DNA of 64,000 bases from Paramacrobiotus metropolitanus. Taxonomy: Eukaryota > Tardigrada > Eutardigrada > Parachela > Macrobiotidae. Below, one piece after another: positions 16,832-40,819 of this stretch (position 1 is the stretch's first letter; the number at the start of each line of letters is the position of its first letter). The notes under the pieces are model-generated. The model saw nothing but the letters and a program-made list of their open reading frames with translations. It had not been told where the DNA came from and did not search any database. The translations under genes and the position numbers were made by a program. The stretch is taken from positions 1 to 64,000 of the forward strand of contig NW_026570312.1 in NCBI RefSeq assembly GCF_019649055.1, given 5' to 3'.

Positions 16832-16839
16832 GTGCTGCA
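16832..16839. repeat. Left copy of 8-bp target-site duplication (GTGCTGCA)
   Basis: The octamer GTGCTGCA, part of F-box exon 1, abuts the outer end of the left terminal inverted repeat. The identical octamer abuts the right end at 40,739-40,746. In undisrupted family members the site occurs once. Confidence 0.9.
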
Positions 16840-16867
16840 CAGAAGTGGCTTAATCTGTACCAAACTT
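16840..16867 (+). repeat. Left terminal inverted repeat of giant transposon
   Basis: The 28-bp repeat begins CAGAAGTGGC and ends TACCAAACTT. It differs from the right repeat at four positions (1, 6, 12 and 17). Confidence 0.88.
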
Positions 16868-16921
16868 ATTTTAGGGTTTCACTGTCTAATTGCGGACCAA
16901 CACATCGTACTGGTTGGTGAT

Positions 16922-17725
16922 GCCGCGACGCACCGCTACACGACTTGTACCGTAGGCAGGTACACCTGCAGCGACGCCGCGATGGCCGCGACGCCTGTAC
17001 TTAGCCGCGATGCACCGCGACACTGCGTATGCCGCAGATAGGCATGCCTGCCGCGACGCCGTGATGGCCGCGACGCCTGTATACAACCGCGATGCACCGC
17101 GACACGGCTTGTACCGTAGGCAGGCATACCTGCCGCGACGCCGCGATGGCGGCGACGCCTTTATATAGCCGCGACGCAACGCGACACGGCTTGTACCGCA
17201 GGCAGCCTTACCTGCCGCGATGGCCGCGACGCCTGTATATAACCGCGATGCACCGCGACACGGCTTGTACCGCAGGCAGCCTTACCTGCCGCGACGCCGC
17301 GATGGCCGCGACGCCTGTATACAACCGCGATGCACCGCGATGCGGCTTGTACCGCGGGCAGGCATACCTGCCGCGACGCCGCGATGGCCGCGACGCCTGT
17401 ATACAACCGCGATGCACCGCGACACGGCTTGTACCGCGGGCAGGCTTACCTTCCGCGACGCCGCGATGGCCGCGACGCCTGTATATAACCGCGATGCACC
17501 GCGACACGGCTTGTACCGCAGGCAGCCTTACCTGCCGCGACGCCGCGATGGCCGCGACGCCTGTATACAACCGCGATGCACCGCGATGCGGCTTGTACCG
17601 CGGGCAGGCTTACCTTCCGCGGCGCCGCGATGGCCGCGACGCCTGTATATAACCGCGATGCACCGCGACACGGCTTGTACCGTAGGCGGACATAACTGAC
17701 GCGACGCTTGTATATAACCGCGACA
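16922..17725 (-). repeat. Left subterminal satellite array (approximately 82-bp unit)
   Basis: About nine to ten tandem units of a GC-rich sequence contain GCCGCGATGGCCGCGACGCC, TGTATATAACCGCGATGCAC and GGCTTGTACCGCAGGCAGCC-type blocks. It is the reverse complement of the right array at 37.4-40.7 kb. Units vary in whether they keep a 9-bp CGACGCCGC segment. Open frames run through it on both strands because the unit lacks stops; I do not treat them as genes. Confidence 0.9.
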
Positions 17726-18199
17726 CTGCAAATACGGCAGGTGGGCATACGAATGGCTGGCAAAGTTTATAGGTCACCGAATTTTGTGTACCCGTTGACA
17801 TTCTAAGTTTCTTTTTTTCCGCAGGAGGTATTACTAATTTAACCAGACAATTTTAGTTTTGATGCAGTCCAAAAAAGAAATTTATTGCAAAATGCGCGCG
17901 ATTCCACACAAATCCGCTGAGCGGACAGCCCTAAAAAAATGTGGACCCGCATCATAAGTCTGCACAAATCGCTTAAAGAATGCGTAGTTTGTTTCATAAA
18001 ATGTAAACTAAGGATTAATAGTACGCATTCAGTGATAAACTTGAACTGATGAATAGGATTAACGGGTTCACGCATCCAAGCTTAATTTTGCTACTAGAGA
18101 CAAGCGATGAGAACCATGACATTATGAATAACAAGAAAAATTTCACTTTACTGGAGCCAATGTTTCCGGTTTCACAGTTTTGCCCCTGCTGGCGGACTA
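17726..18199. other. Unannotated interior of giant transposon
   Basis: Between the left array and the ATPase relict I see no gene or repeat that I can support. Confidence 0.4.
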
Positions 18200-18614
18200 T
18201 TTTAATGGCCTTTCAGCTTTCTTTCGTGGGCTTTCCTTCATCGCGAACGCGGGTCTCAGCATCTTTCACTAAACTCTCTTCGGTAAACGGAATAACCACA
18301 AAACGGGACATACCACGCACACTACAAAGAAAAAATTTATTTTGGCAAGTTTTGTATTACTATATTCTAGTCAGTTTAAAATCTTAATTATTGAAGTTGC
18401 AAAATTCGTCCAAAGAATCCGCGTTTGGTGTGGCTATGGCTGGAGTCTGTGGTAAACGGCGTTCTCTGTGGTTTTTTATAAGATTTTCCTTGTACGTATC
18501 ATTCGCAGCCATTGTCAGAGTTTGTGGGCTGAGAAGATCGCTGATAACCGAAGGATTAATTGTGCTCCCAATCTTAACAATGAAGGAGTAATCGTAGTTC
18601 ATCTGAAAAAGCAA
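18200..18614 (-). pseudogene. Inverted relict of the transposon's own P-loop ATPase gene
   Basis: After an acceptor (TTTTTCAG) the minus strand starts MNYDYSFIVKIGST, matching MNCDYSFNVENGKT of the ATPase gene at 29,548. It jumps directly to AANDTYKENLIKNHRERRLPQ, matching the end of the ATPase exon at 31,047-31,422. A second block (about 18,335-18,240) has GMSRFVVIPFTEE, matching the next exon. The P-loop part is deleted and later sequence is stopped. So this is a shortened, inverted copy of the cargo gene near the opposite end of the element. Confidence 0.75.
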
Positions 18615-18974
18615 AAATTGCTGTCGTAAAAATGTATGTTAGTACTTAAATGAAAGTCAAACATGCGAAAATTCCTTACTCACCAATAAATCTTCCACTT
18701 GAATTTTTGGCGCGCCCGTTCTCCAATGCTGAATTACGGAAGCGATTAACTAAAACAATAAAATTTTTCTTTTTGACGCTTCAAAGTTATTCGGAATTTA
18801 GAAGAAACCAAAGTACCACAAAAGAAGAATTATAAAAGGCTGATCGAAATTTCCTTAAACGGCTAATGCACGTTAAATAGTTGGGTCGGTGTGACTGTGC
18901 CCGGCCATAAACGGTTCGCTATTGACTGAACCTTTGACAGCCCCATGCTGAGGCATTGCACGTACTGCATCATT

Positions 18975-20360
18975 AATTGACAAATAGGGCATATTTTTCC
19001 GTGCATTGGGTTTATTTTAGAAAATTAAGGCGCGTCACGACACGAAAACTGCAAAAGGCGATCGTTTCTGTGTGTTCGACATTACGGTGTATAGCGAACT
19101 GCCAGCTACAAACGCCGGATGGTCAAGGACATGCTGGAGTACAGTATGCAAAAAGACGAAAGCGTCGTAATCGAATGCGCAGCTTGTTCTATGACGAACA
19201 GTACGCCGATTAAAACACGATAACGTCTGGGTGTGCTGGAAAAAGCCTTTCCCGGTTACGAAGATCTCATATTCCGAACTGTAATCGAATTAACCGACGA
19301 TGATGATGGTGCCGAGTTGACCGGCCAACAACGCAAACAAAAGATATGCAGCAAGAGTCTGGATGGCGATGGACGTGAATCGGACTGAGCGGACAGTGGT
19401 TTGGAGGAAATTTGCAAAACGACCTCCAAGCATCTGCATCGGAAGAGCTTTCCAATGGCCATAAGAAAAAGAAATATATAAAGATTATTTAGAATGCAAA
19501 CTGGAATGGAAGCATTTTCAGCTGGTTTTGGATCTGCTGAAAGAGAAGCCGATTTGCTTCTCAAGTTTTTACCAAATGTTACGAACCCAAATTAGCTCCT
19601 GTGATAAGCTGCGTCAAATTCATAAAATATCGTTTTGTCCGACATCCGTCCGATAAAAATCTGCAGCGCAATATGTGGTCTTTCCAGAGGATGCCCAAAG
19701 CATACTCCCGGCGTCACGGTGGTGACTGGTGATACCTCCCGATTCAATTACATTCAAAATACGCATGATAACTATGTCAACGAGAGCCAGGAACAGCAGC
19801 ACGAATGCTGTGTCTGTAATGATGCGGTGCGCAGCAATGGGAAAAGACTGGCCTTGTACCTGCACTCACGTTATCTGCCGGACTTGTCACAAAATGATAG
19901 AAAAGGAAGCTTCGAGCTATCATATGCAGCAAACGCAGTTTCGGAAAGTCGCCAAAAAACGCGAAGTTGTAAAGGCCGACGGTGTGCACCGCCAACCTTT
20001 GCCAGAAAAATTGCGTTTAGATACGTTGAGTTTGAAAAGTGCTCCACAGAAAATGGAAGCAGTGGTGTACAAGATTTTCAGCCTAAACAATGTTGATCTA
20101 CGGGAAAATTCTCGGTTATTCTGATTAACGGAAAGTCTGGATGATTACACGACGATCGTGATTCGCAACGGGGAGACGGTTCTGTATGTCAAGGACTAAA
20201 AAGGTATTCCCGTTGCTATAGAGGAGCTGCGAAATGGGCGAATCAAGGTTCTTCTTATGTCCATTTCGTTGGGCGGCAAGGGTCTGACCATTACTGGGAC
20301 GACGTATTTGTTCTTTTTGGAACCAGCTATGAATAATGCAGTAAAATTGTAAACAATTCC
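18975..20360 (+). pseudogene. SHPRH-like SNF2/RING relict
   Basis: A C-terminal helicase piece reads GIPVAIEELRNGRIKVLLMS then GGKGLTITGTTYLFFLEPA (about 20,205-20,340), as in SNF2-family helicase domains of SHPRH. Upstream are APQKMEAVVYKIF (about 20,040) and a RING finger in two frames: ECCVCNDAV, then GKDWPCTCTHVICRTCHKM (about 19,800-19,900). An acidic part, FRTVIELTDDDDGAEL, lies at 19,275. SHPRH is a RING-type E3 ligase and ATPase of DNA damage tolerance. Frameshifts and stops (for example at about 20,198) show a dead fragment. It was probably captured by the giant transposon; order of domains supports SHPRH over other SNF2 proteins. Confidence 0.6.
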
Positions 20361-22334: not shown

Positions 22335-25300
22335 TCATTTATCGGTGAACGTGCGCATTGTACCCCCGACCGGCTGCTTTTCCTCTTCTACACATTCTGC
22401 TAGGTAGGCATTGCGCCGCAATATCATTCGATAGAGAAAAAAGATTTGTCTTGCCTTGTTCATGGCGTTCAGCTGTTTTCGGAATTTTGCCAGCCATGCA
22501 AACGTTTGTTCAGCTGCCATCGTGTTCCGCTTTTCCGCCTCTGGATAGGTTGAGTAGTATTTATCTGGGTGGTAATCCTTACTGCATTTTGGATCTTTGT
22601 GGTTTTGTATGTGCAATCCGTCGATAATTTTGCTGACCCGCAACCACATCTCATCAAATGGTTTCGGCAACGGCAGTCGTTCACAAGCCGCCTTCAGCCG
22701 GTTTAGCTGGCAGATATTGTCGTAACAAACAAATATATTCTCCCAGTCGTCAGGTGGCACATCTTGCAGTAACTGATACAATCCACTGATCAAAAACAGG
22801 AAGACTTGTCCAAGGCTTTCTGCCCTAATGGAACAAATTATCGAAATAATGAAAAACGGACGCACGTCCCTCCGAAACACAAGCTTCCATTCAGAAATTA
22901 TCTGTTTACAGTAAAATCTCTATAAAATACAGGCACGGTTCCACCCTTTCGTACGTTATACCGGGGTGTATTTCATAAAGGGAAACTGCCCCCAGGGGCG
23001 CTGCTATAATTTGGGGGGGGGGGGGGGGCGTCGCAGTACATGCATTTTGAAAATGTAGCATTAATGCAGTAGCAAGAATTTGAAGTAAATTACAGATTTG
23101 AATTACATAAATGTTCATTAAAAAATATAAATTTCGTTTGGAGTTCATCCTAAAGACTTAGTACGCATGATTAGTGCCTGAAGACTGGTAAAATAAGGAT
23201 ATTCTGTTGAGATATACTTCTGTATATAGTAATTACCATTTACACAAACAAAGTTAATCTTGGTTGCTCCATTTTAAGTCAGGATGTTAGGATAACATCA
23301 GATTGCATCTGACTACTTCTGTGCAACTGTATTTAACCGGAGCTGAATGTTGTTCAAAGGTTCTCTACGCTGGTTAACCCACATTCGGTTCCGCGGAAAG
23401 TGTAGGTAAGACTTATAAAGAGAATCTCCCCTATGTATGCATAACTTGCGAGCCAATTCGGTTCCTTAAAGGTTGAATGTTATAGAGAAGTGTATTTAAT
23501 AAAAAAGTATATGTAACGTGAGGTTGTACTGTAGATATTTCTGCATGATTCCATGCTACCATAGTGAAAGCTTGAAAATATATATAGGCTGAAAGGGAGT
23601 TTACTCGAACTTAGATAAATCACATTAACCCTTATTTAAAAAAGCTCTCCTCGCGAAATGGTGTTTTGTTTATTTAGCGGGGTAGCAGTTAATTACTGTA
23701 CATTTGCATGGAACAAAGCTGTGTTATGTCATGGCAGTACTAAATACGAGTAGAAGACATCAGCGCAACATGCCCACTTCCGGTGCTACTTCATGAGAAG
23801 GCAATCCAGCCATCTGCACAATGCTTTATGGCTCGTAGGCTCCATTGGTTGCCATGTTAAGCGTTTTTAAAATTTAAAAATTTAGAATGAGAAGGCTATA
23901 GCTTAAAAGAAAGAAAAATTTTTTAAAAATTTCCATGTATAATATGTATGCAATTCAAGTCGATTACATGTTGTAAAGAGTTTCAAATTGTATGCAATTA
24001 GCACACAACGTTCGCGCGGTCTGGACCGGCCGTTGCATCGACTTTGAACGCTAACTCGGCTTACTTTCGAGATGTTCTAAAAAATCTCGCTTATCTTTTA
24101 TTAATAAAGACGTTTGCATAACAAAACTTGAAATTTTGTTTCTCTTTCTTTTGAGCTAAAACTCGGTTGATTCCACAGCACGGGAAGTGAAATGCGTTCA
24201 CCATAAAAGTCTTATATCCTACGTGCCTTAAAGCGGTGCGCTAGCGGGCTGCTTCCCTTACTGTGACGTCGCCAACGGCGAGCGTACGCCTTCTCTTTAG
24301 TACCGCCATGGTTATGTACACCTATGCGGTAATCGCATGCTCTCTCCTCTATGCACCTTCGTGTTGGAAATTACTGCTCTAGATGATTAAGATCACACCA
24401 ACCTATCTTTCTTCAGACACAAGAATCATCACTCTCTGGTGCAGCAGAATCGGCTACATTTTTACGCTGCGCTCATGCCATTTTTGTGCGGAAATTTTAA
24501 TTGAGATTTTTGTCATTTACCATCTACAAGCGGGATACGGTGGCTGCCATGGCAGGTAGGACGTTATAGTAGACGTAATGCTGTCACGTATAACAGCCTG
24601 AAAATTCTAACGCACATCTTGCGTCCTTTTTGATACTGGCAATAACTATTTTTAGAAAGATCCATTGGAAACAAGTGGGATTCCGGTTGCTACGCGGTGT
24701 CAAGCAACTGATCGAATTCTTTTACTTAATTAGAAAAATCTTACCGGTCCAAGAAAACAACAAATAATGTAATTTACGTAGCTTTACGACAACTTTGTTT
24801 CGGCTCCGCCATTATGTTACACTACTTATGCCGCCTTGAAATGATTGGCACTTGGCTTCAATACTCTTGCAGTCTTGCTACACTGAAGAAAGGTACAACG
24901 ATTGCGCGATATGGCTGTCATATTTGGGTATCTGCAGTGTTTTCTCAGATTGCTGAATTATTATAGGCAGCCGATAATACTGCTGGTAGTGGCACTGACC
25001 GCAGAATTACATATATGATTTTCTGGGCCACTTTTATAGCGATTTGATGTCTACCATGCCTCGTTATCCATATGAATTATTGGTTTATCAGGTCTTTGTA
25101 TTTTCTACCTGTAAATTGGAGCAAAGCTGAAGACGTGTCCAGTTGGTCCAACTAGAAATAAGTAGCCACGGCTGTATAGGTGTCCCCGCTGATTTTCAGC
25201 CTTGTTCTTTTTGCAGCTGGCTTGTGGATCAAATTTTCTGCAAGTAGTCTCCTGGGTGGCGCTGTTCATCTCCCCGCTTAGCAGCACATTAATATCTGAC

Positions 25301-28300
25301 ACTGCTTTAGAATTGAGCATGTCCGAAAGTCCTGAAACGCATTCGTCGATTGATCACGAAACAAGAAGTTGGATACCGTACTAAAACTTACCTGCCATAT
25401 GAATAGTCATATGTTCGCGTGGCCCTCTAATGGCGGCTTCCAGGTGCTTATGTTTTTTGCAGTGTAGACAACGGCCATCTGGTCCGTTTGTACATACGTT
25501 CGGAAAGTTCAGCAATGGAATGCTTTCCACAATGTTCTAAAACGAGTTCAAAGAAGGTCTGTTTGCACCTTACTATAAACAAATTATTTGCGTAAATGGG
25601 GCAGTTAGCCGGCGGCCCCCAATTTGTCGACCGTCCTTTTGTCAAAAAGGCATGATGTCGACCCGCCACGAAGTCGAGATGCCGTTTTTCTAACGCGTCT
25701 CAAATTCTTGGGATTTCTAAGTTTTCTTGGGTTTCTTATCTTCTCATTTTTGTTACGTCCCTTAGGTTCTTGATTTTTAGTCTTCTTACGTCTTTTTACA
25801 TTTCTCAGTCGCCGCCTGCGTGATGGTGGACGCTGTGGGGTCGACGATGGGTCGGTCGACAAAATGTCAGACGAAAAAAAGTCGGTAAGCCCAATTAGTA
25901 AATTTTAAAAATTACAATAAACATTTGGCACCGCATCTTTTTGCTCCCTCTGCATACTAACCTGCACTTCGGCGATGCAGTGTCTGAAACCCGCTTTCCA
26001 AATTCCGTCCATGATAATTACCCTTCCACACTGCTGAGCAATACATGCAGGGGTGCATTCATGTCGGAACACGGTGGAAAATACGGCGTCCATTCTCTTA
26101 TCCAAATATTGCAGAATACTCTTATTCTCATCGAACATGAATGGCTCAGTATCCTTTTCCCGAATGTCACACTCGATTTCGTGCCGCATGAATGTGGCTG
26201 CCACTGTTTTCCGGGAAAATACTAAAATGTTTAAAATATCCGCGTTTATCTCCGCTTGGCAACATTTTACAGCAAAACTGGAATAAATGCCACAAAATAA
26301 AATGATCTAAGATAAACAAATCTTTAGCTGTGTAATCGTATACGGACTACTAGGTCATTTTCAACTTACAAACGGTGCGGTATGCACAATGCCGGCCAGC
26401 TCGCTGAAGAAAAGCTATCACAGTTCAGTAAGCTGACACTGAGGCCAACTGATTGTTTTTCTTAAGGGAAATGGCCTGGTACATGATACCAAATTCGCGT
26501 ACATGTACGAGAATGTTTACTTTCGCGCACTTTCAGACCCCTTTTTCTCTTGTTTTATGACATTCTGTAGAAAAATGATTTCTGTACACTGGCTTGAAAG
26601 CCTTTTGTGCGCCAACATCCGGTTTGGGGGTTATGGCTGTTCAAAATTCCAAAAAGTTCAAGTGCACTTAGGTGTACCAAAGGTCTGATTATGGACCGAT
26701 CTATTTTTAGATTTTGCACGTAAATACACATAACCACGTTTTTACACCGACCCGTTGTTCTATCATATTTTTCAAATTAAAAAATTTTCATTTTCATTTT
26801 AAAATTTGAAAAACATTATGGAAGCCTGGATCGGTGTAAAACCGATCTTCATGGCGATGTGCATTTATGGGCAAATTTGAAGGTGATCAACTGACTTTTA
26901 GTACACCCGAATGAATTTAAACTCTTTGGAATTTTGTTCCATCCATAACTTTCCAATGTTGAATGCACAAACGGTTTCCACGGCACTTAATATAAATCAC
27001 CCGGTTACAGAATCTAAGAAGCCAAAACAAAAATGTGTTTGGGAGTGCGCGGAAGTGAAATTTTCCGTACATGAAAACGAATTTGGTACCATGTGCCGGG
27101 CAACTTCCCTTTACTTAAAACATCTGAACGGCAGACATATGCTACGCCTGCGCGTACCCACTGCACAAAGCCAAATACAAAGAGGTGCATACGGAATTAT
27201 GTCGGTGAACCTAAACGGTGACCCGCAATTTCGTTGACGAAAACCCCTCGACCGGCATCTCCTCAAACAGAAAATTGTTTTTTGGTATACCGTATTAGTT
27301 TTCTTAGGTTCCCCTAGGTTTCTTTAAGTTTCTTGAGTTTTCAGGTTTGTTAATTTTCCTAGGTTCCTTGGCTTTTTCAACCGTCGTCTCATGACGATCG
27401 ACATCGTCCGGTCGGCCTTGTAATAGGCGACTTTACTGCTTCTCGATATCACATCGATCGACTGGTGATCGAGCAATGCTCGATGTTATTGTCTTGTATT
27501 TCATACAGTACAATTCTCGGAAGAGATGACAAACTGACGGTAAGTCAAATGCGTGCATGATCGTAATTAATTTCGCAGTTTTAGGAATATGGCTTATACG
27601 AATGCAGCCATAAGCTACAAAACATGGAGACGTTGTTGTTCTTCGCAGTAACTTACACGAATCCCATTTGTAGGTCTGCCGCATAGTTTCCGCGATTCCA
27701 TCGTACGTAGCATGGTTAAAAAGGCTGCAAGAATATGTGAAGCTGTACATAGCTTAGTTGTCACTTAACTAGTTGATACTACCCCAAGATTATTTAAAGC
27801 AACTACGATAAATTCCGTTTTTCTGTTGTATAGTGATGAATCTTGCTAATATTGCAAAAAACAAGAATTCTTCGCAACGAGTAAGCGGTTGTGAGATCAC
27901 TCGGCCGTTGAAACTGCAGGAACCAAAGTAATTTAAGAAAATAATACAGTAATACAGTGATAATTCAGTAATACAGTAAGAAAATAATACAGTAATAATA
28001 CATACAATAATAAAGTAAACTTACATGTGGTTAACGATTTCAAGAGAGAATTTCCGACAAACGAAAACCTTTTGCGAGACATCCAGATAAGGCTATTCAG
28101 TAGTGTAAAAGGAGTACTTTGATGTTCGATGGTTTGTCCAGCTGCTGTAGGAATAGCGAGACTTGCATCCTCTGCACCGCAAAGTAACCACTAATGCTGG
28201 CTTCGTTTTTCCAGCTCCGCAAAAAATGGTAGCCTGGAAGCCAAGATAATAAAGCAATATCTTATATCCACACATGCTTCGGGCACCAGTCTATATAATA

Positions 28301-28875
28301 CCTCAGTCGGTTTACGATGCCAGGACAGAACTCGTAACATTCCTTTGTGTTGGCCAATTTTCCACAAGCATTTGTTTTGGCAGTGTAAAACAGGAGGACA
28401 GAGCACTTCCACTGATGATGTATACGGCGGGTCTTCAAAGAATGACGGCGCAAATCGCCGGTATTCACATGCGAAGCTTTGGGTTTGAGAAATCGAGAGG
28501 CCCATCATTTCGGCAATTGTCTGTGTCATAAATCACAAAGGAACGTAAGGTTAAACATCTGATTTTTTCAAATATTCGAATAGTGGTAATACGTCGAAAT
28601 TCGTGTAGTGGTAATACGCATACTTTTTAAAAATAGAAGAAATTAGTCATGAATACCTGCATCCGACGCGCAGACGGCATTGTCTTTGGCACAAAGGCAC
28701 AGCACACTTTAAGCTGTTCCAGATTTCGGAATCCGTACTTGGTAGCCAAGTACCCACACGCCTCGCGAGAATCAGCATCGAATTCGGGCGTGGAGGACAT
28801 AATGTCAAGGAAATTTAAAGTCGCTGAACAAAACTTCGAAATTGTTATTTCTGCCAGAAAAGCGTACACATTCAC
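22335..28875 (-). CDS. KDZ-superfamily (Zisupton-like) transposase, eight exons
   Basis: Exons 28875-28657, 28520-28272, 28233-28118, 27724-27657, 26221-25962, 25536-25392, 25331-25109 and 22824-22335 join in frame to about 589 aa. N-terminal zinc-type motifs include CPPVLHCQNKC and CRGCKSRYSYSSW. The central part has HATYDGIAETMRQTY, RKTVAATFMRHEIECDIRE, IIMDGIWKAGFRHC and CTNGPDGRCLHCKKH. The C-terminus has CYDNICQL, IIDGLHIQNHKDPKC and AAEQTFAWLAKFRKQLNAMN. Likely catalytic acids are the Asp of MDG, the Asp of YDN and the Glu of AEQ. The last intron is 2.28 kb; donors are GT throughout. No stop or frameshift is present, so the enzyme may be active. The start could instead be Met at 28,800. 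Confidence 0.85.
22906..23030 (-). repeat. Pogo-like MITE end plus poly-G run
   Basis: Within the last transposase intron, CAGTAAAATCTCTATAA resembles mariner/pogo terminal repeats. It is followed by a segment (GGGGTGTATTTCATAAAGGG, GCCCCCAGGGGCGC) shared with 53,215-53,340 in the F-box cluster. A run of about 18 G at 23,012-23,029 ends it. Confidence 0.4.
25610..25870. repeat. TTAGGTTTC-type dispersed element with GTCGAC flanks
   Basis: A pyrimidine-rich core (TTCTTGGGATTTCTAAG and similar) lies between GTCGAC-containing flanks. It sits in an intron of the KDZ transposase. The Arg/Lys-rich open frame on the minus strand is a by-product of the simple sequence. Confidence 0.45.
27230..27430. 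repeat. TTAGGTTTC-type dispersed element
   Basis: Core with TTTCTTAGGTTCCCCTAGGTTTC-like units (about 27,297-27,372), flanks with CCTCGACCGG and GTCCGGTCGG, in a transposase intron. Same family as the elements at 15.8, 25.7, 33.1 and 41.5 kb. Confidence 0.45.
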
Positions 28876-28989
28876 ACGGATATTTCCATAATAATATGCA
28901 TATAAAAGTGACCTTCAGTGCATCGAATGCGAGTTATCAAAACAAAAAAGGGAGAAATTTCGATTAAGTAGGGAACGGTATTGAAAGTT

Positions 28990-31900
28990 ATGGAGAATAT
29001 TCGCTTGCAGTCTGTTTTTAATCAACAGTTAGAAGCTGTTGGCGAGCATAACACCGGTCACCGAAGGTGGACTTTTTTAAAAGTCTGAAGAAATTCCGAT
29101 TAAACTCTCATACTCAATCGCACAATTTGCGGCACTGAATCGAATATACGGCAAAATCCACCCACTTTGCCGAATGTCCAATGCGGTCTGTGCAGTGCCT
29201 TGCAGGGAAAAGGGTTGCACCCATGCCAGCCAATGGCTCAGCTTAGTCGGGCGTAAACAAGAAGGCTGACCTAATTTTCTCACGTGCGCTTTTGCGTTCT
29301 GCTTTGATGAAAATGAATGTGTGCATAACTTGAAACGTGTTTCCAAACAGTTGCAAATTCTTAGTATGGAGTACATATGGATTGATGAAAAATTATGCGC
29401 AGTCATTAAAAGTTTTTTTTTCTAAAGCTGTTAGCATGCTTTGAAAATAATCTGAAATGGATTCTTCGGTAATTACTGATTCTTTGTTCGCATGCTAATT
29501 GTTTATTTGATTGATTGTTGATGGTTGCTCTGGCATCTTTTTTCTAGATGAACTGCGACTATTCCTTTAATGTGGAAAACGGAAAAACGTTTAAGGTCGC
29601 TGTTCCTCGAACTGATGACCCGGGCAAGCGAAAGGTTTTAAGCTGTGCTGTCGCTATTAAGGCAATAGTCCTTGGAGATGACTCCGATGCTGACGGCGGT
29701 TACGTTATCGAAGTCGATTGCGAAGATTTTGGAAAATTGTGAGTTGTATGCTTGTCATATTTTAGCCAATTGAATTTTGACGTTTTTACTGACGGTGTTA
29801 CGTGACTGAAATTTCTGAAGGCTCTGATTACTCTGCGGTTGTTTTAGCGATGGCTTCTTGCCGAGCACGGCGTGGCACTCAGCTGAAAACTTTCGCAATG
29901 CCCTAAAGAAAAGCTGCAAAGGTTTGCCCGCTATCTTTTGCAAACTCAGCCAGGCCGACTTGCAGGACTATGGAGAATCCCTGACCTTAGACTTTGTCAG
30001 GTGAGATAAGCGGCCTCGTAGTTGTGCATTACGCAATCTTAGCAAAGCTATACGGCAGTAATGTAAATAAGCTCTTTCCGTAGAGTGCCATAAACGTATT
30101 TCTGGCAAATTTTTGCCAACCTTCAGCTTATTAGTAATATTTAAGGTTTGATGAAAAACTTCTGCTACTGAGAATGCAAACAAGAATCGTACTACTCGTA
30201 CAACGTCATAAATCAGCCGAAACTTCAAATGCTTGCATACAAATCCTACAACCAAAACCTTTATGCTCGAAGTCGCATAAAAGTTTTAGCGTGCTTCTAT
30301 AAGAGGAACGTTAAACAGAAATACGAATTAAAGGCAAGAAGTTTCAATATGCCCAGCTGTACATACTGGTGAAAACGTTTCCAACGAAAATCGCTACCGG
30401 CCAAAGATAAGTCGACTTCTGTGAGGATGTACTCGTACACTGATAAAAATCATGTGTTTCAGGAAGGCTAAAGAAAATGGCGAACCTGTGTACCGAAAAA
30501 GGGTCGTTCGTCACGGTCGTCAGCTTGATCAAGATATTGTCGTACTTGGTGGAGACACTGCATTCCGTTTGCTTCCGGACGGCTCTTGGAACCGAGTAAG
30601 GCTTTCTGAAACTGAATATATTTGGATTCCCGGCGCTATCCCAGATTTGTCGATTCCGGATTCGCTTCCGGTGGAGTTTGACGCCTTCAGGTTCATCGCG
30701 TCCTTTTTGCCGAAGAATGCGCTCTTTGGATTCAGCCTTGCTTTAGGTATGATAAATTGCATTAGATTGTACATTCTTCACGCAAGCACAGTCAGCGCAA
30801 TTTCATGTACTTTTTTAAAACTTTTTTCCTCATCGAAAGTTAGTACTTGAATAAAACAACTGGACATACATGACCGAGAAAGTTGGACGTGGGACGGTTC
30901 GCACGCCTCTTTTCATGAGCTGTCCTCCGCGGTGATCTTTGCATAGTTATATATACATTTAATACAAGTATTGTGCACCTGGTAACCTATTAACTTTGAT
31001 TATGAAGTTTGTAAAATAATTTTATTTTTATTTTTGGCTGCTTTAGGGGCTGCCTACGCCGGGTTCCATTACGACACAACTGTTGAAAACTTCCTGAGGA
31101 TGCCGACACCACTTTTGTATGGGGAAACCAACTGTGGGAAATCTTTCACCGGCAGCACGGTTTTAGAAATGTTTGGAACGGGAGCTTCAAAACTTTACGA
31201 TTTGAAGACGACAACGCTGGCGGGACTGAGAGAATCGATCACAAGCCAAGCATTTCCCGTAGTTATCCATGACCCTGCCAGCCCGGAAATTGTGAAAATG
31301 GCCGTGGAAGATACGTACGAGAAGAAAGCTTTAGCGAACTACAAAGAACGACGGTTTCCACGGACATCAGCCATAATAACTCTAAATGCTGATGCGCTCA
31401 GTGACTTTCGTAATTTTGATAAGTAAGTATGGGACAATAATAATTTACAATTTAAACTTCCGTTAAATTGAACTGTATCTTATAGCATACGGGGAATGTC
31501 TCGCTGTGTGGTGATCCCGTTCACTGACGAAATCCCCGAACGAGATGCCGGGTCCCGTGTTCGTGATAAAGGGCTTTTTAATTTCGTTTCTCAACATGCA
31601 GTCAAATTGTTCCAGTGTGGTAAAGCCGAAATTGCTGCCGTCGCTGAGCATCACAAGTCGATCTATAGTGAGGTGACAGAAAAGCTGAAGGATTATGGCC
31701 TGGAACAGTCGAGGCAGCGAATTGCGTTCAACATTGCACTCATTTATGCCTATGGATGTAAAGTAAGACCATAAATTTTGCAATTTTTAAAACCTAAATA
31801 ACCCAGTTTTCAGTTCAGCGAGAGCGCAAGCTATGGCTTCTGAAACCAAATAGAGCACATACCCTTAACGTGGGTTTTGTGGTACTGTGAGTGATGGTGG

Positions 31901-34227
31901 CTAAACATTCAGAAAGAGACCGAACACGAAAATCTGCAGTGGTTGTTGTTGAGTAAATACAGTAAAACAAGCCAAATAAAACATAAAAAACCTTCAGAAA
32001 AACAGCAAATCGCCGATATTTCTGCGCCCGAACATCGGGGCGCATAGCTAAATTCTATGCGCCTGGTTTGTCGGGCCGCATAGCAGTCACCTTAATTAAA
32101 AGTCAGTTACGGTTGGAATAACGCACGATAGATGAACTAAACTAACTCACTACCTAATTAATTTATAGATCGAAAATTCATGCCCGAAATTGCCCGAGAT
32201 TGAGAATATATGCTAAGTGGTGATTAAAAGATAAGGGAGTTTAAGCGTAGGGTCGCGCACATGGCGATGCCGTAGCCATTCAGGTGATATAGGCAAATAA
32301 ATGCTATCAGGGTCGGGCTTTGGCTTCGTGCATGCACAAAGCATTTAGGCTCGGTTTTTTGTACACTTCTAAACCCGTAGTATATTTTGCTTTGTTATGG
32401 TAAAAGGTTATGCAACTGCCGGTAGGTAATTCACATGACTACTATATCAATGTATTGTTCGAACACTGTTTAGGTTTTGGAAGTGGTGGACCCCACTGGC
32501 TGTGTTGATCTGGCAGAATTCCGGGCTTTCCTCCTACGTATCGCCTGTAAGGAAGCTGCTAAATGGCAGTCAAAGCCGGAGACCAAAGCCAAGCATGTAC
32601 AACCCCGAACTCCCCTTTCGCCGGATACTAAACAGCAACATGTTTCTTCTGCACCAGCTACCATAAACGAAGTTATTGAAGAAGCTCTCAAAACCTGTGA
32701 CGAAGAAACGGTGCGTTTATTAAATGTCCTGCGTATTGCAAAATTTAATCTCTATAATTTATTCGAACATGAAAGTAAGGCCTGATCGGCATTTACTGAT
32801 GCGTTCAGTCCGAAGCTGCTAACGGGGATGAGCAGACATCCCACGCGGAACTTGATGACTAATTTCACTCAAGCCAGCGATGTAGCAAGCCAGTACTCAA
32901 GTGTAAAAGTATGTTCACATTCAGGGCTCTAAAAAATGCCATTATTAATAATGTAAATGCTTAACGTTGTCAGAGGATCACCGACTTACACTTTGTCGAA
33001 GGAGACAATGTCGACCCACACGAGGACGACGAGTAATAAAACATAACACAAAATGTACGAAAACAGAAGAAACCTACGAAAAACTAACTTAACAAAACTA
33101 ACTAAACCTAATAAACCTAACTACTAAAACTAACTAACTAACCTAAAAATACTTTCGTCGGCAACGGTCTAGTGGGCGTGGCGAAAAACAAATTTATGCG
33201 CCGTACGTATTGTCAATGTACATTGTATTGGCAATACAATCGGCATCCGATCAGTGTTACATGTTATCACTGCATTTGCGGTCTTCCTTTAACTTTTTTT
33301 GACTACTAATTCTTAATTTTGGTTTTTATAACATTCAGTTTTTAAAAATCTGACCGGTATTCGATTTGATGTGAATGCACTGCATACCTCTAAATTCTTC
33401 TCTGCGCTGTAGCACGCGCGCGATCCTGGCAAATAAAAGGAATTCACGAGACTTTTACATTGTCCCGCCAGTCAGTAAAAAGTAAAATTTACCGAAGAAA
33501 AAGTCTAAAGGGAAGTTTTCAACAGTACGACGAACACCGCTTTATGAGAATACGTATGTACGTACATTGGCCAGTGCCAGTGCATTAACAATACACACGG
33601 CAGTTTAATTTATTTTTGGCCACGCCCACTGGACCATTGATGAAAATACTTTTTTAAATATTCCCAATACCTTCTCTGACTTCAAGCAAGCAGTGAAAGT
33701 TTTCTGAGGGGGGAAGGCGGTGACCTGACCTGGTAAGACGGCTTAGCTAAACGTGTGCTCCACGTGATCGGTTACACGTAAAATACTTAGCTTACTGTTG
33801 ATTTGCAGGTAGACTGTGCAGAGTGAAAGTCTAGTAAGCCATTGTTATTTTTTTCATCTGGCATGTTGTTTAAGGAAACAAACTTGAACCTTCGCATAAG
33901 GAAAGTCAAGTCAAACCATGAATTAAAATTAAGGAAATATCTCTTGTTTAGGTGCGGAACAATGTTAAGTTTATCCCAGGGAGGTCAAGCGGTGGACTTT
34001 CTTTGGCATTTAAACAAGATGGGATTGAAAGTTATTTGAAGGCCCGAGGCAAAGATGTAAGCTTTTTACAACCATACGTACGGACATTACGCCTGGTTCG
34101 ACACGCTGACACTTCGCGAGACGTAAGGCTTGGAGGACGTTCACTTAAGGCATCCGCGGTTCCTGTGGAGATTATTTCCGAAAATGTCAAATCAATGCTG
34201 AGAAAAATCGGTAACCGTTACAAATGA
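28990..34227 (+). CDS. Cargo P-loop ATPase/helicase-like gene of the giant transposon
   Basis: Core exons 29548-29738, 29848-30000, 30463-30746, 31047-31422 and 31486-31762 join in frame. Further exons are likely near 31,811, 32,466-32,780 and 33,952-34,227. A possible first exon starts at 28,990 (MENIRLQSVFNQQL). The product has a Walker A loop LLYGETNCGKS (about 31,110) after FSLALGAAYAGFHYD, then FPVVIHDP, KERRFPRTSAIITLN and SRCVVIPFTDE. It ends with GGLSLAFKQDGI and a basic C-terminus. The sequence looks like a DNA-helicase-type P-loop NTPase of a family found in invertebrate genomes, which I cannot name precisely. A damaged inverted copy lies at 18.2-18.6 kb. Exon structure after 31,762 is uncertain, and one long intron holds a MITE. 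Confidence 0.7.
33000..33160. repeat. TTAGGTTTC-type dispersed element, reverse orientation
   Basis: The plus strand has AACCTAATAAACCTAACTAC and ACTAACTAACTAACC units, the reverse of the family seen at 15.8 kb, with an upstream GTCGACCC flank. It adjoins the MITE that begins at about 33,166. Confidence 0.45.
33166..33635. mobile_element. 470-bp MITE with long imperfect terminal inverted repeats
   Basis: The left end GGTCTAGTGGGCGTGGCGAA and the right end read inward, GGTCCAGTGGGCGTGGCCAA, match closely. Similarity continues for about 60 bp. No target duplication is clear and there is no coding sequence. It lies in an intron of the cargo ATPase gene, so it inserted into the giant element. 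Confidence 0.65.
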
Positions 34228-34325
34228 CCATTCCATTTTGGCTAACCATCATGTGCAGCGTAAACATATTCTGCTGTGCAGAATATGTTTACGCTGCACA
34301 TGATGGTTAGCCAAAATGGAATGGT
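34227..34325. repeat. Perfect 48-bp inverted repeat with 3-nt loop
   Basis: Bases 34,227-34,274 are the exact reverse complement of 34,278-34,325, with TGT between them. The left arm starts at the last base of the ATPase stop codon (TGA) and begins ACCATTCCATTTTGG. Part of the right arm (GTGCAGCGTAAAC) occurs once more just after it. It could be a foldback insertion, a replication slip or a structured 3' end. Confidence 0.85.
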
Positions 34326-34429
34326 GCAGCGTAAACGAAAATTATTCTGGCTGTGCTCGGATCCAGTTTAAAAGCTCTGCAGTAATGCTTTGCACTAAAT
34401 AGCCTAAAGCACATGGTTTTCGATCGTGC

Positions 34430-36879
34430 AGGAATTACAGAAGGAAGCACTTCGTCTGTGCCAGAAGAAGCAAAGAGAACGCTGGCATCCAACTCCGGAC
34501 TCCAGTTGTCCGTTACAGTGGATGAAATCAACAAAATGACTTCTGAATGCCCACAAAGTACCACTCAGACGCCAGTGAAAGTTACACCGGCAGACCGTCC
34601 TGATGATACGGCAGCAGGAAATTCTGGTTGTTCGACGTTCCGGGTTGACGACGGCAAGTTCTTTTTTACGTTGCTGGTGTAGCGGTGTCTGTATTCTGCA
34701 TCCATCGATTATGACCGAAGAACCATTTTTGTAGAACGCGATAGCAGCGCGGCAGAAAAAGCTACAGTGAATACAGCAAGTAGCATTGTGCACTCGCCAG
34801 TTTCTCACGTTTCCCAACCGGTTGCAATAACAGACCAGCTGCCGTCGCCGCCACGCACTACGGCTTCTCGAGGCAAGTAGTGCTCTTTCTTGATATTGGA
34901 TCATCCGCTAATGTATTTCCGTATTTGTAATACGGCTACAGTACTTTACTCTTTCTTACGGTTACTTGTTAGGACTGGTGGATACTGGTGGGCTAAAAGC
35001 TAATACCAAAAAACGAGCGAAGCGAAAGCGTACGGAAGGATCAAAAGGTGACCTTTTTACTCTATTTAGTAAATGTTATTTTCGTGATAGTTACCAACCG
35101 GTGCTTTCAAAGGTCTCATTGCTCTTCAACAAGTTATGCAAAAATTGGACTTGGATGACAAACATGTTCTCTTTTTATATGTGTTGTTCCAAATTTACAA
35201 TTTGTTAGGTGTGCTAGCTTTAACGCGAGGAAAGAAGCCAAAAATCGAAATTACATCAACGGGACATGAAATTTCGGTACGTGTTCCCTCTATTTAAAAA
35301 CGTATATTTAGGGCGAAAGCCAGAATTCGAAAGTAGACGAAAGCCAGAATTCATTCTAACCAAATATTTGAAACAGGCAAGGGATTTCAATATCACCGAT
35401 TTCGATTTGAGTTATGTTGTGCTTATCTATCGTATTTATTTGTTAATATTTTGCTCGCCAGTTGATAGTGGTTGCCGGTACTACCAGCACGCTGCATGAA
35501 TCACGTATATGTACAGTAAAACTCACCGAAAAACAGGTCTTCTTGCAAGTGTAGTGACTTATCTTCACGAAGAAATATTTGTGTCTAAAGACGTGTGCTT
35601 AAAGCTTTCAGTTCAGAAGTGTAGAAACTGAAGTGATACTAAAGTACTATTGACGAGCGATTCAGTGCCTATTTCGAACACATACGGTGAAGGTCATTCA
35701 TGGGATTTTGCGCCATTTAGCGTTGTGTATAACGGAGGAGAAAAAGTTTTTTGACTTCCGCCTACCGAAATGTTCCTGTTGTTTTTGTTGTTTGTTTAGG
35801 CAAGGTGCAACGCAAGAACATTGGTGATGTTTTTGCGTTGCAACTTGGAAAGTTTTTACTATGACAAGTAATCATCTCCGTGACCTAGGTACAAGTGAAA
35901 GTATGTAAAAAATTGAAGAATTTTGTGAATGCTGCTAGTGAAAGTGGCGCGCATTATGATTAGAGCATTAGAGCAAAATTTTCTTGCCCCCTTGAATTTG
36001 TATTGCGCCGCAAAGTTTTTGTAAGGATAACCGTAGACCACTGGATGTTTTAATTCAACTCATCGCGATTGGGCTATTGCAAAGCGCCGGTAAGGAAGAG
36101 GTGTGCAGACCTGGGACTCGGAATTTAAGTTAGCACTCCGTTTAGGTTAATACACATTTATTTATAGCTGTATCTTAACGGTTGATGACTCGGTACAGTC
36201 TTTGCTGCAGGTTTTTTATTTAGTAGACTTTCATAAACTCATGTGAAAAGAATGATAATCGCATGGAAAATTTTCGAAACCAGTGGACGGTTTTCAGCTG
36301 CATTCTTCTGCTATTTTCTATCAAAGGCGGTGCGTTCTTTACGCAATAAACATTCTTGTCATGCTTTTCTCGAAACTGCATAACAACTGTGTTGAGTATT
36401 AACAGTTATTAAATAATCGTAAGTAGCGGATCATATTCTTTCCGCCATTCTGCATCTGTCGCAGATATGGTTGATGAATTCACGTTCTGCCACCTATTAA
36501 CAGTGCAACGCTGTTAGCCCGTAGATATTGCTTGCCGAGAAACGAGCACACCGTTTAACAATGATGTGTTAGAGGAATTTCAATCGCAATTCAAAGACAG
36601 TAATTTATTTGAATCGCAGCAGAATGCTGCAAACAGCATTCATCAAGAGCATGAAATTTGTCAGACTCACAAGGAAGCAATGTGCATCTGAAAGGTCATA
36701 AAACTGTTGTTTTTATTTAGTGCTCCGTGTGCGCGTGTGATATTGATTTGGACGATCCAGGAGTGGGGTGCACGGATTGCAAGCTTTGGTATCATCTGAA
36801 GTGCCAAGGAATAAAACGCCAATTGTCGAAAAAAGCGGAAAACTCTTACAAGTGTTCCGCTTGCAAGGGAAACACCTGA
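34430..36879 (+). CDS. PHD-finger gene of the giant transposon (exons partly resolved)
   Basis: The last exon (36,721-36,879, after TTATTTAG) encodes a full PHD zinc finger. Cys at residues 1, 4, 17 and 20, His 25, Cys 28, and Cys 45 and 48 of the exon include the usual Trp two before the His (KLWYHLKC). PHD fingers read histone H3 tails. Likely upstream exons lie near 34,430-34,680 (Ser/Thr-rich), 34,730-34,878, 34,971-35,047 (basic, KKRAKRKRTEGSK), 35,209-35,277 and 36,567-36,690 (FQSQFKDSNLFESQQ), but I could not fix every splice site. Some of these may be the ATPase gene's 3' end or a separate gene. The finger itself is certain; the gene model is not. Confidence 0.55.
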
Positions 36880-37435
36880 GATTTTGGAGACGTCGGGAAC
36901 CGGCAAATTGAAATTTTTCTTTTTCCATACAACGTTTACAGTGAATGTTGTCGAGCTTAGCGATAATGGCAGATCTTTTGGCCATCACAGCCTGATCGAA
37001 ACGAATCCGAATACGGCATCACAGCGATTTCTTATTAAGTCTTTACGCTAAATTTTTGCTACGTTATTCGAGAAGCTATATAATATGCAGCGAATGATGA
37101 ATATTCTTTAACATTTAAGCTCTTTGGAATTTTCATGATGATTCCTTATACATTTTGTAACAACGATTACAGAATATTGTTGAGTCCAGCAGTCAGAAAT
37201 TGCTAATAAACGTTTTTTACTTTCCTTTTAGCAAAAGTTAAATAATAGATCAGCATTGTCATCAAAACACGCAAAACTTTGAAGTTGTACTTCATCAGAT
37301 CAACATTAAGTGCACTTTGAAGTCAATCCAAGTTCAAGCCAAATGAATCACCAGCCCATTAACCAGTTTATTGCTGACCCCATCATTGACGCACTGCGGA
37401 AAATGCACCAGGCATGGTAAACTGTCATACTGTAA
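36880..37435. other. Short AT-rich stretch with a possible 25-codon exon
   Basis: An ATG at about 37,343 opens MNHQPINQFIADPII and runs 25 codons to TAA, just before the right array. It could be the end of a gene or chance. Nothing else is recognised. Confidence 0.3.
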
Positions 37436-37436
37436 G

Positions 37437-40400
37437 GGTCGCGATGCGTTGCAGTTGTATACAGGCATCGCTTCATGCATGCCTAAATGCAGTATATGTA
37501 ACACTGTCGCATTGCATCGCGGCTATATACAGACGTCGCGGCAATCGCGGCGTCACGACAGCCATGCCTACCTGCGGCATACGCAGTGTCGTGGTGCATC
37601 GCGGTTATATACAGGCGTCGCGGCCATCGCGGCGTCGCGGCAGGCATGCCAACCTGCGGTATACGCAGTGTCGCGGTGCATCGCGGCTATATACAGGCGT
37701 CGCGGCCATCGCGGCAGGTAAGGCTGCCTGCGGTACAAGCCGTGTCGCGGTGCATCGCGGTTATATACAGGCGTCGCGGCCATCGCGGCGTCGCGGCAGG
37801 TAAGGCTGCCTGCGGTACAAGCCGTGTCGCGGTGCATCGCGGTTATATACAGGGGTCGCGGCCATCGCGGCGTCGCGGCAGGTAAGGCTGCCTGCGGTAC
37901 AAGCCTTGTCGCGGTGCATCGCGGTTATATACAGGCGTCGCGGCCATCGCGGCAGGCATGCCAACCTGCGGTATACGCAGTGTCGCGGAGCATCGCGGCT
38001 ATATACAGGCGTCGCGGCCATCGCGGCGTCGCGGCAGGCATGCCAACCTGCGGTATACGCAGTGTCGCGGTGCATCGCGGCTATATACAGGCGTCGCGGC
38101 CATCGCGGCGTCGCGGCAGGCTTGCCAACCTGCGGTATACGCAGTGTCGCGGTGCATCGCAGTTATATACAGGCGTCGCGGCCATCGCGGCGTCGCGGCA
38201 GGCATGCCAACCTGCGGTATACGCAGTGTCGCGGTGCATCGCGGCTATATACAGGCGTCGCGGCCATCGCGGCGTCGCGGCAGGCATGCCAACCTGCGGT
38301 ATACGCAGTGTCGCGGTGCATCGCGGCTATATACAGGCGTCGCGGCCATCGCGGCGTCGCGGCAAACTTACCAACCTGCGGTATACGCAGTGTCGCGGTG
38401 CATCGCAGTTATATACAGGCGTCGCGGCCATCGCGGCGTCGCGGCAGGCATGCCAACCTGCGGTATACGCAGTGTCGCGGTGCATCGCGGCTATATACAG
38501 GCGTCGCGTCCATCGCGGCAGGTAAGGCTGCCTGCGGTACAAGCCGTGTCGCGGTGCATCGCGGTTATATACAGGCGTCGCGGCCATCGCGGCGTCGCGG
38601 CAGGCATGCCAACCTGCGGTATACGCAGTGTCGCGGTGCATCGCGGTTATATACAGGCGTCGCGGCCATCGCGGCGTCGCGGCAAACATGCCAACCTGCG
38701 GTATACGCAGTGTCGCGGTGCATCGCGGTTATATACAGGCGTCGCGGCCATCGCGGCGTCGCGGCAGGCATGCCAACCTGCGGTATACGCAGTGTCGCGG
38801 TGCATCGCGGCTATATACAGGCGTCGCGTCCATCGCGGCAGGTAAGGCTGCCTGCGGTACAAGCCGTGTCGCGGTGCATCGCGGTTATATACAGGCGTCG
38901 CGGCCATCGCGGCGTCGCGGCAGGCATGCCAACCTGCGGTATACGCAGTGTCGCGGTGCATCGCGGCTATATACAGGCGTCGTGGCCATCGCGGCGTCGC
39001 GGCAGGCATGCCAACCTGCGGTATACGCAGTGTCGCGGTGCATCGCGGCTATATACAGGCGTCGCGGCCATCGCGGCGTCGCGGCAGGCTTGCCAACCTG
39101 CGGTATACGCAGTGTCGCGGTGCATCGCAGTTATATACAGGCGTCGCGGCCATCGCGGCGTCGCGGCAGGCATGCCAACCTGCGGTATACGCAGTGTCGC
39201 GGTGCATCGCGGCTATATACAGGCGTCGCGTCCATCGCGGCAGGTAAGGCTGCCTGCGGTACAAGCCGTGTCGCGGTGCATCGCAGTTATATACAGGTGT
39301 CGCGGCCATCGCGGCGTCGCGGCAGGCATGCCAACCTGCGGTATACGCAGTGTCGCGGTGCATCGCGGCTATATACAGGCGTCGCGTCCATCGCGGCAGG
39401 TAAGGCTGCCTGCGGTACAAGCCGTGTCGCGGTGCATCGCGGTTATATACAGGCGTCGCGGCCATCGCGGCGTCGCGGCAGGCATGCCAACCTGCGGTAT
39501 ACGCAGTGTCGCGGTGCATCGCGGTTATATACAGGCGTCGCGGCCATCGCGGCGTCGCGGCAGGCATGCCAACCTGCGGTATACGCAGTGTCGCGGTGCA
39601 TCGCGGTTATATACAGGCGTCGCGGCCATCGCGGCGTCGCGGCAGGCATGCCAACCTGCGGTATACGCAGTGTCGCGGTGCATCGCGGCTATATACAGGC
39701 GTCGCGTCCATCGCGGCAGGTAAGGCTGCCTGCGGTACAAGCCGTGTCGCGGTGCATCGCGGTTATATACAGGCGTCGCGGCCATCGCGGCGTCGCGGCA
39801 GGCATGCCAACCTGCGGTATACGCAGTGTCGCGGTGCATCGCGGCTATATACAGGCGTCGTGGCCATCGCGGCGTCGCGGCAGGCATGCCAACCTGCGGT
39901 ATACGCAGTGTCGCGGTGCATCGCGGCTATATACAGGCGTCGCGGCCATCGCGGCGTCGCGGTAGGCTGCCAACCTGCGGTATACGCAGTGTCGCGGTGC
40001 ATCGCAGTTATATACAGGCGTCGCGGCCATCGCGGCGTCGCGGCAGGCATGCCAACCTGCGGTATACGCAGTGTCGCGGTGCATCGCAGTTATATACAGG
40101 CGTCGTGGCCATCGCGGCGTCGCGGCAGGCATGCCAACCTGCGGTATACGCAGTGTCGCGGTGCATCGCGGCTATATACAGGCGTCGCGTCCATCGCGGC
40201 AGGTAAGGCTGCCTGCGGTACAAGCCGTGTCGCGGTGCATCGCGGTTATATACAGGCGTCGCGGCCATCGCGGCGTCGCGGCAGGCATGCCAACCTGCGG
40301 TATACGCAGTGTCGCGGTGCATCGCGGTTATATACAGGCGTCGCGGCCATCGCGGCGTCGCGGCAGAGCATGCCAACCTGCGGTATACGCAGTGTCGCGG

Positions 40401-40690
40401 TGCATCGCGGTTATATACAGGCGTCGCGGCCATCGCGGCGTCGCGGCAGGCATGCCAACCTGCGGTATACGCAGTGTCGCGGTGCATCGCGGCTATATAC
40501 AGGCGTCGCGTCCATCGCGGCAGGTAAGGCTGCCTGCGGTACAAGCCGTGTCGCGGTGCATCGCGGTTATATACAGGCGTCGCGGCCATCGCGGCGTCGC
40601 GGCAGGCATGCCAACCTGCGGTATACGCAGTGTCGCGGTGCATCGCGGCTATATACAGGCGTCGTGGCCATCGCGGCGTCGCGATCGTTG
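37437..40690 (+). repeat. Right subterminal satellite array (82-bp and 73-bp units)
   Basis: About 41 tandem units occur. The common unit is 82 bp and contains GTTATATACAGGCGTCGCGG, CCATCGCGGCGTCGCGG and AGGCATGCCAACCTGCGG. A second type replaces the last block by AGGTAAGGCTGCCTGCGG and often lacks 9 bp. It is the reverse complement of the left array. Because 82 is one more than a multiple of three and the unit has no stops, long frames (up to 605 codons) run through with an 82-residue period, on both strands. This is a satellite, not a protein gene, as far as I can tell. Confidence 0.92.
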
Positions 40691-40710
40691 CCGCGACTGT
40701 CGCGCGATAA

Positions 40711-40738
40711 AAGTTTGGTACCGATTGAGCCAGTTCTA
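40711..40738 (-). repeat. Right terminal inverted repeat of giant transposon
   Basis: Read inward on the minus strand the repeat begins TAGAACTGGC and ends TACCAAACTT. It matches the left repeat at 24 of 28 positions. Confidence 0.88.
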
Positions 40739-40819
40739 GTGCTGCAGGTGACCGTCGATGAAAACATCCACCGTATTCCAGCCGCAGACCTGACGCTTGT
40801 CGTCGCCGTACACAGGCAT
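40739..40819 (-). pseudogene. F-box family gene A, first 27 codons
   Basis: From ATG at 40,819 the minus strand encodes MPVYGDDKRQVCGWNTVDV and continues to DGHLQH at 40,739, exactly the start missing from gene A at 16.8 kb. The last 8 bp are the right copy of the target duplication (40,739-40,746). Beyond it the frame runs into the transposon end and stops at once. Together with the piece at 13,017-16,839 it forms one gene. Confidence 0.88.

Follow-up and report, generated by a model that had tools for sequence, protein, structure and literature searches.

A 23.9-kb element assigned by homology to the KDZ transposons, with a conserved, predicted NTPase-PHD partner gene, splits an F-box family gene in a tardigrade

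The stretch of DNA analysed here, which we call the window, comprises the first 64,000 nucleotides of contig C92 (C92:1-64000) in the 169.8-Mb, 533-contig genome of the tardigrade Paramacrobiotus metropolitanus. Within it, a segment of 23,899 bp (positions 16840-40738) lies in the first coding exon of a gene of the F-box family (Table 1). The segment carries a predicted KDZ-type transposase gene and, head-to-head with it, a gene for a predicted P-loop nucleoside triphosphatase (NTPase) to which we assign a PHD finger exon, and two GC-rich arrays of an 82-bp unit adjoin the element ends. The ends themselves match as inverted repeats at 24 of 28 bases and are flanked on both sides by an exact copy of the 8-bp sequence GTGCTGCA, both of which agree with the original prediction for this locus. 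The span given there, 16832-40819, holds on the left, where it starts with the duplication, but its right coordinate, 40819, is the host start codon, and the element itself ends at 40738. The 23.9-kb segment is a genuine element that was inserted with an 8-bp duplication.

Table 1. Features of the element and of the interrupted host gene (window coordinates; gene structures are splice models).
Feature	Positions	Strand	Details
Target site duplication GTGCTGCA, left copy	16832-16839		exact match to right copy
Target site duplication GTGCTGCA, right copy	40739-40746		exact match to left copy
L-type terminal inverted repeat	16840-16867	+	CAGAAGTGGCTTAATCTGTACCAAACTT; member of genome-wide end family
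R-type terminal inverted repeat	40711-40738	-	reverse complement TAGAACTGGCTCAATCGGTACCAAACTT
Left subterminal array	16923-17707	+	82-bp unit, 9.7 copies; inverted relative to right array
Right subterminal array	37505-40683	-	82-bp unit, 39.6 copies; inverted relative to left array
Predicted KDZ-type transposase gene, 8 exons	22335-28800	-	28657-28800, 28302-28520, 28025-28233, 27657-27724, 25962-26221, 25392-25536, 25109-25331, 22335-22824
In-frame stop codon in transposase exon 3, window copy	28093-28095	-	C7 and C150 copies open there
Partner gene, predicted P-loop NTPase part	29548-34653	+	29548-29738, 29848-30000, 30463-30746, 31047-31422 (Walker A), 31486-31762, 32474-32710, 33952-34210, 34432-34653
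PHD finger exon, assigned to partner C terminus	36721-36876	+	PF00628 29.4 bits, cut-off 24; exons between 34653 and 36721 not settled
Degenerate second copy of NTPase exons 4-5	18234-18572	-	counterparts in C7, C56, C98
Host gene of F-box family, codons 1-27 (one duplication copy included)	40739-40819	-	
Host gene, remainder of first coding exon (to extent of query)	16448-16839	-	98% over 24-155 of joined query
Frame with F-box, likely downstream exon of host gene	14168-15103	-	PF12937 27.1 bits, cut-off 24.3

When one copy of the duplication is removed and the flanks are joined, MPVYGDDKRQVCGWNTVDVFIDGHLQH runs in frame into GEIINLAPGG..., with codons 1-27 coming from the 40.8-kb side and the remainder from the 16.8-kb side. 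The earlier claim that a single exon had been split in frame stands, as the rejoined exon also matches uninterrupted paralogues. Three paralogous exons in the window (44289-44759, 45310-45771 and 51326-51790) are unbroken across the insertion place, and the first of them has GTGCTGCA at the homologous position, 44679. Genome-wide the joined exon has at least 153 matches, its own exon counted (150 of 914 candidates were scored), and in nine of its ten best rows the match passes over the join without a break, the remaining row being the split exon. This confirms that the element has inserted into one member of a large family of F-box genes, and given the size of this family the loss of one member may be tolerated. 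The assignment of the first exon and the F-box frame to one host gene is inferred, because the paralogues show the same arrangement: an F-box frame follows the first exon at 0.5-1.2 kb downstream in the three window paralogues and at 1.6 kb in the split gene. A 42-bp joined pattern representing the empty insertion site had no match in the assembly at up to 3 mismatches. It is worth noting that the family of the disrupted exon (host exon frame 16289-16849) has many matches on few contigs (C92, C52, C137, C168, C271 and C9).

The splice sites and phases of the predicted transposase model are consistent over its 8 exons. Residues 85-208 match CxC5 (PF18718), a domain named for KDZ transposases, with 43.2 bits at a cut-off of 26.9, and this domain is found at 29 places in the genome at E 0.001, of which 27 pass the cut-off, and in none of 14 control genomes. 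The KDZ core exceeds its cut-off at 3 places in the genome and again in none of the 14 controls, and these 3 places are 45, 38 and 34% identical to the window exon. The only database relative of the transposase at E 0.001 is P0001, an annotated P. metropolitanus protein that is 63% identical over 65% of the model and shows the inferred junction of exons 4 and 5. Candidate DDE residues, picked by eye, are D (IIMDG), D (CYDN) and E (AEQTF). No THAP or P-element family was listed in Pfam scans of the transposase, the match being instead to the KDZ-associated domain. Two observations weigh against a KDZ assignment, namely that the KDZ-like core (PF18758) in the last transposase exon of the window reaches only 18.5 bits, below the cut-off of 26.6, and that neither the spliced transposase frame nor P0001 had a KDZ match in a Pfam profile search. 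Given the chain of homology to kin over the KDZ cut-off, the CxC5 domain, the inverted ends and the 8-bp duplications, we nevertheless place the element by homology in the KDZ superfamily, as the original prediction did. Since the transposase frame of the window copy contains a premature stop, this copy would need transposase from elsewhere, and it likely cannot move alone and depends on the transposase of other copies.

Other copies with the same ends, on which the original prediction had staked its case, are found throughout the genome. A 27-bp end pattern has 50 matches at up to 3 mismatches and none when the pattern is read backwards, which is far beyond chance. The ends fall into two recurring types, L (AGAAGTGG...CTGTACC) and R (AGAACTGG...CGGTACC), with 8 exact genome-wide matches to the R-type 27-bp pattern. 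An 8-bp duplication is present in 7 of the 9 end pairs whose flanks were compared. It is perfect in the window element, in C7 (29.8 kb, CATTGTAT), in C98 (3.2 kb, TGTTTCGA) and in C44 (8.75 kb, AATTTTAT); in C59 and C9 it is also perfect, but 5 and 3 extra bases, counted by eye, stand beside the L end; and in C121 it is perfect, yet its two ends share one strand and are separated by 84 kb. The remaining two pairs, C56 and C52, have no matching duplication, which counts against the account given here. The extra bases at the L ends in C59:313213 and C9:1856359 suggest imprecise joining or trimming there. At three L-type ends (C1:2239612, C22:1173103 and C98:553313), the 82-bp array was not matched in the 1.5 kb inward, and these may represent other sub-lineages or be solo ends.

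The C7 element is collinear with that of the window from end to end, with 66-86% DNA identity in aligned blocks. We also considered a composite of unrelated repeats, or an artefact, that merely mimics one element. The interior does contain a degenerate NTPase copy and stretches that are not conserved in C7, as a composite might, but a collinear 29.8-kb copy with a perfect duplication of its own, together with the joined host exon, refutes this explanation, to which we give next to no credence. C98 is 88-94% identical to the left arm and right tip of the window element and is an internal deletion derivative. Closest to the window element among the copies found is C150, with 93.4-98.4% identity by aligned block when the arrays are excluded, a difference of about 5%, and with a synonymous divergence (dS) of 0.05 over 422 NTPase codons; the second end of this copy was not found in 1.5 kb at the expected place. 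The insertion had been called young, which we do not sustain, since with a nearest copy that differs by about 5% nothing shows a very recent insertion, and the transposase frame already has a stop.

The partner gene starts about 750 bp from the transposase start, on the opposite strand. Its predicted product has a Walker A motif (GETNCGKS) followed by HDP and TLN, and among 10 NTPase sequences, of which nine have 34 to 99% identity with that of the window, there are 32 invariant columns, including GxTxxGKS, HDP and the Asn of TLN/SCN. The PHD finger exon has 18 matches genome-wide. The NTPase exon matched at 27 places, 4 of which were degenerate remnants and were set aside; of the 23 that are left, 20 have a KDZ match within 12 kb (42 of 67 KDZ rows were used, weak or fragmentary rows being excluded), and all 20 pairs are head-to-head. 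Chance alone, with 42 KDZ places in a genome of 169.8 Mb, would account for about 0.14 such pairs. The pairing persists in lineages in which the KDZ exon is 43-52% and the NTPase exon 26-34% identical to those of the window. The ratio of nonsynonymous to synonymous substitution rates (dN/dS) between window and C7 is 0.120 for the partner gene (640 codons; exons 1-7 and the PHD exon) and 0.080 for the transposase (577 codons), and none of the 16 blocks compared contains a stop in C7, indicating that the partner is conserved nearly as strictly as the transposase.

These observations bear on whether the partner serves transposition or is a passenger that an ancestor acquired in a single event and that was retained for a benefit to the host or for silencing host defence. 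Passengers have precedents in this superfamily, as TET/JBP genes with a probable epigenetic function are found in fungal KDZ elements (PMC12730594) and giant algal elements carry accessory genes whose function is mostly unknown (PMC12477816); for these and all papers cited below, our statements refer to excerpts of the published text. A passenger would hardly be expected to keep its head-to-head pairing in every case, even as identity to the window falls to 43% for KDZ copies and to 26% for NTPase copies, under constraint close to that on the transposase, and we regard this explanation as unlikely.

Identifying the NTPase further is difficult, and several results speak against a confident account of the partner. 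For three of the 23 NTPase places, a KDZ match within 20 kb is missing, although one of them, in C121, has a CxC5 exon 5 kb off. The NTPase has no Pfam match at E up to 1, including helicase and TnsC/MuB/IstB-type families; a search of the PDB gave sub-threshold P-loop matches and one unrelated weak row, with nothing significant; and structure models from single sequences were of low confidence (mean predicted local distance difference test, pLDDT, 42.9 and 31.4). No relatives outside this genome were found among 5.8 billion proteins (single sequence at E 0.001, alignment at E 0.01, about 8000 candidates each), a search that may miss distant ones, and one scan each with short conserved patterns found no viral or prokaryotic relatives in IMG/VR or GTDB genomes. 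Among PHROGs there was no significant match, the best being a DNA primase family at E 0.061 for 1 of 5 members. With no significant matches and poor models, a label such as 'helicase' or 'target selector' is unproven.

A helicase deserves separate mention. The order of Walker A, short acidic strand and conserved Asn resembles that of superfamily-3 helicases, a likeness that is read from the motifs and is not the result of a profile search. These motifs are invariant in the 10 sequences, down to the most distant at 34% identity to the window's, and the weak primase match of one member points the same way. If the partner were a superfamily-3-like replication helicase, the element or its ancestor would copy replicatively and not by pure cut and paste. 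Pfam, PDB and PHROGs offer no significant match for such a helicase, and no polymerase or Rep-type nuclease was seen in the 19 element open reading frames scanned (of 104 frames, so that one could be missed), whereas inverted ends and 8-bp duplications are traits of DDE cut-and-paste elements. A replicative element is possible, then, but we lean clearly away from it, if a little less so than from the passenger.

The cargo of the element, which had been thought distinctive, turns out to be mainly the one partner gene. There is no set of captured genes, and introns and terminal arrays account for a large share of the length. Several copies of the element have a decayed second NTPase gene downstream of the transposase, and C7:2303850-2308230 retains pieces of exons 1, 3, 4 and 5. 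At 19626-20124 a RING-like cysteine pattern extends over two reading frames (zf-RING_4, 18 bits, cut-off 27); it is not among the frames conserved in C7 and may be a captured gene that has decayed. At 34228-34325, within an intron of the partner gene, two arms that by eye exceed 40 bp form a near-perfect hairpin, perhaps a nested miniature element.

The 82-bp arrays set the element apart in another respect. The repeat core is found at 221 genome places and at none in the reversed control, and among the matches listed these places are on the same eight contigs as the eight exact R-type ends. In the window and in C7, the transposase side adjoins the L end and the PHD side the R end, whereas C56 and C121 are reversed. 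Unique sequence that is found on the opposite side in the window follows the array at either end of C56 and at the L end of C121; at the R end of C121 the 1.5 kb examined is array throughout. We entered 37 L-type and 17 R-type ends for scoring of orientation, and 33 of these 54 have no marker within 16 kb and are uninformative. Among the 15 L-type ends with a marker, 5 face the 3' end of the KDZ gene, 8 the PHD end and 2 are partial, where the L-type labels in more distant sub-lineages rest on ends with up to 3 mismatches; the six R-type ends divide equally between PHD and KDZ (3 each). All five copies scored at both ends (C92, C7, C56, C44 and C121) are self-consistent. Against a general conclusion, only these five of the 13 clearly oriented L ends also have a scored R end.

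The simplest reading, and a likely one, is that the interior has been inverted repeatedly by recombination between the inverted arrays. Flipped interiors might instead arise from end swaps between different copies or from assembly errors in the arrays, which at up to 3.2 kb are difficult to assemble, and the flipped C56 copy indeed has no matching duplication. However, the flipped C44 has the perfect duplication AATTTTAT, that of the flipped C121 also matches, and both orientations are present in several sub-lineages, so that swaps or misassembly seem to us a doubtful explanation. C121 is a special case. The CxC5 exon of its transposase is at about 104 kb and the last exon at about 31 kb, on the other strand; such a separation of exons, together with same-facing ends and matching duplications, is what a large inversion with a breakpoint inside the element would be expected to leave. 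C121 may thus have been rearranged by a large inversion, the alternative being an assembly error.

Taken together, we consider it probable that the window holds a 23.9-kb KDZ DNA transposon in an F-box gene, predicted to move by cut and paste through a DDE transposase helped by its head-to-head NTPase-PHD partner, with arrays that likely flip the interior. In this scheme, the transposase would bind the ends, and perhaps the 82-bp repeats, and would excise and insert the element. The NTPase-PHD protein would assist, most likely by guiding the complex to favourable chromatin, or else by remodelling DNA at the ends or the target. Recombination between the inverted subterminal arrays would flip the interior, and the window copy, with its transposase stop, would be mobilised by transposase from another copy.

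By the established view, cut-and-paste elements of eukaryotes usually require little beyond a transposase. That an NTPase-PHD gene has stayed head-to-head with a KDZ gene across deeply diverged lineages, with both genes similarly constrained, turns target choice by a dedicated transposon ATPase in eukaryotes into a hypothesis that can be tested. Likewise, the occurrence of both interior orientations and of a split C121 copy with a matching duplication makes this genome suited to watching transposon-driven rearrangement in an animal. Giant elements have been linked with taxa that live long haploid phases (PMC12477816).

Compared with known KDZ elements, the window element is familiar in many traits. 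KDZ1 of Cryptococcus, of about 11 kb with 241-bp terminal inverted repeats and 8-bp target site duplications (PMC12810828), has in common with it a KDZ-type transposase with a CxC domain, terminal inverted repeats and 8-bp duplications; the window element is twice as long and has 28-bp ends with separate 82-bp arrays and an NTPase-PHD partner. Target site duplications of 8 bp are reported for Zisupton and KDZ1, and of 7 bp for two Kyakuja families (PMC12730594, PMC12810828). The original prediction knew of no described element of such size with this cargo, but giant KDZ elements of up to 30.3 kb in Ectocarpus and of 31.7 kb in Chlamydomonas, the latter observed moving, are in print (PMC12477816); a description as the largest KDZ element known was likewise rejected, as the literature has 30-32 kb. 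The giant algal elements share with the window element their size, accessory genes and a transposase gene that is frequently predicted broken, and the excerpts mention neither an NTPase-PHD partner nor a flipping interior (PMC12477816). Zisupton of fish and nematodes is similarly an animal element with a multi-exonic transposase of the KDZ superfamily, for which giant copies, an NTPase partner and arrays are not mentioned in the excerpted text (PMC12062965, PMC9297572). Zisupton is listed in tardigrade repeat libraries (PMC11071193), and a 2019 review of giant transposons does not mention KDZ or Zisupton in its excerpted part (PMC6431247). As for the arrays, Galileo/Foldback elements of Drosophila have long, partly internally repetitive inverted ends and have been linked to inversions by ectopic recombination; Galileo, unlike the window element, belongs to the P superfamily, and the excerpts do not mention an interior that flips between distinct ends (PMC3573991, PMC2775673). 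KDZ elements, 8-bp duplications, giant size and inversions through repetitive inverted ends are thus already known.

For the partner, the nearest parallels are bacterial. MuB, TnsC and IstB are ATPase partners of bacterial DDE transposons, and in each case, as in the window element, the ATPase is encoded beside the DDE transposase. No sequence relation between them and the window partner was found, the PHD finger is a eukaryotic module, and the role of the window partner is putative. A stronger version of our proposal would be a two-protein system in which a KDZ DDE transposase works with an obligate ATPase that recognises chromatin by its PHD finger and chooses insertion sites, an independently evolved animal counterpart of MuB/TnsC, in an element whose interior is flipped between two distinguishable ends by array recombination; we hold this version only tentatively and would not bet on it. 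Neither an NTPase-PHD partner of a KDZ transposase nor a KDZ element with a flipping interior was found in the openly licensed literature that was searched, which is not proof of novelty. What is new by this comparison is the conserved head-to-head NTPase-PHD partner and the inverted end arrays with an interior in either orientation.

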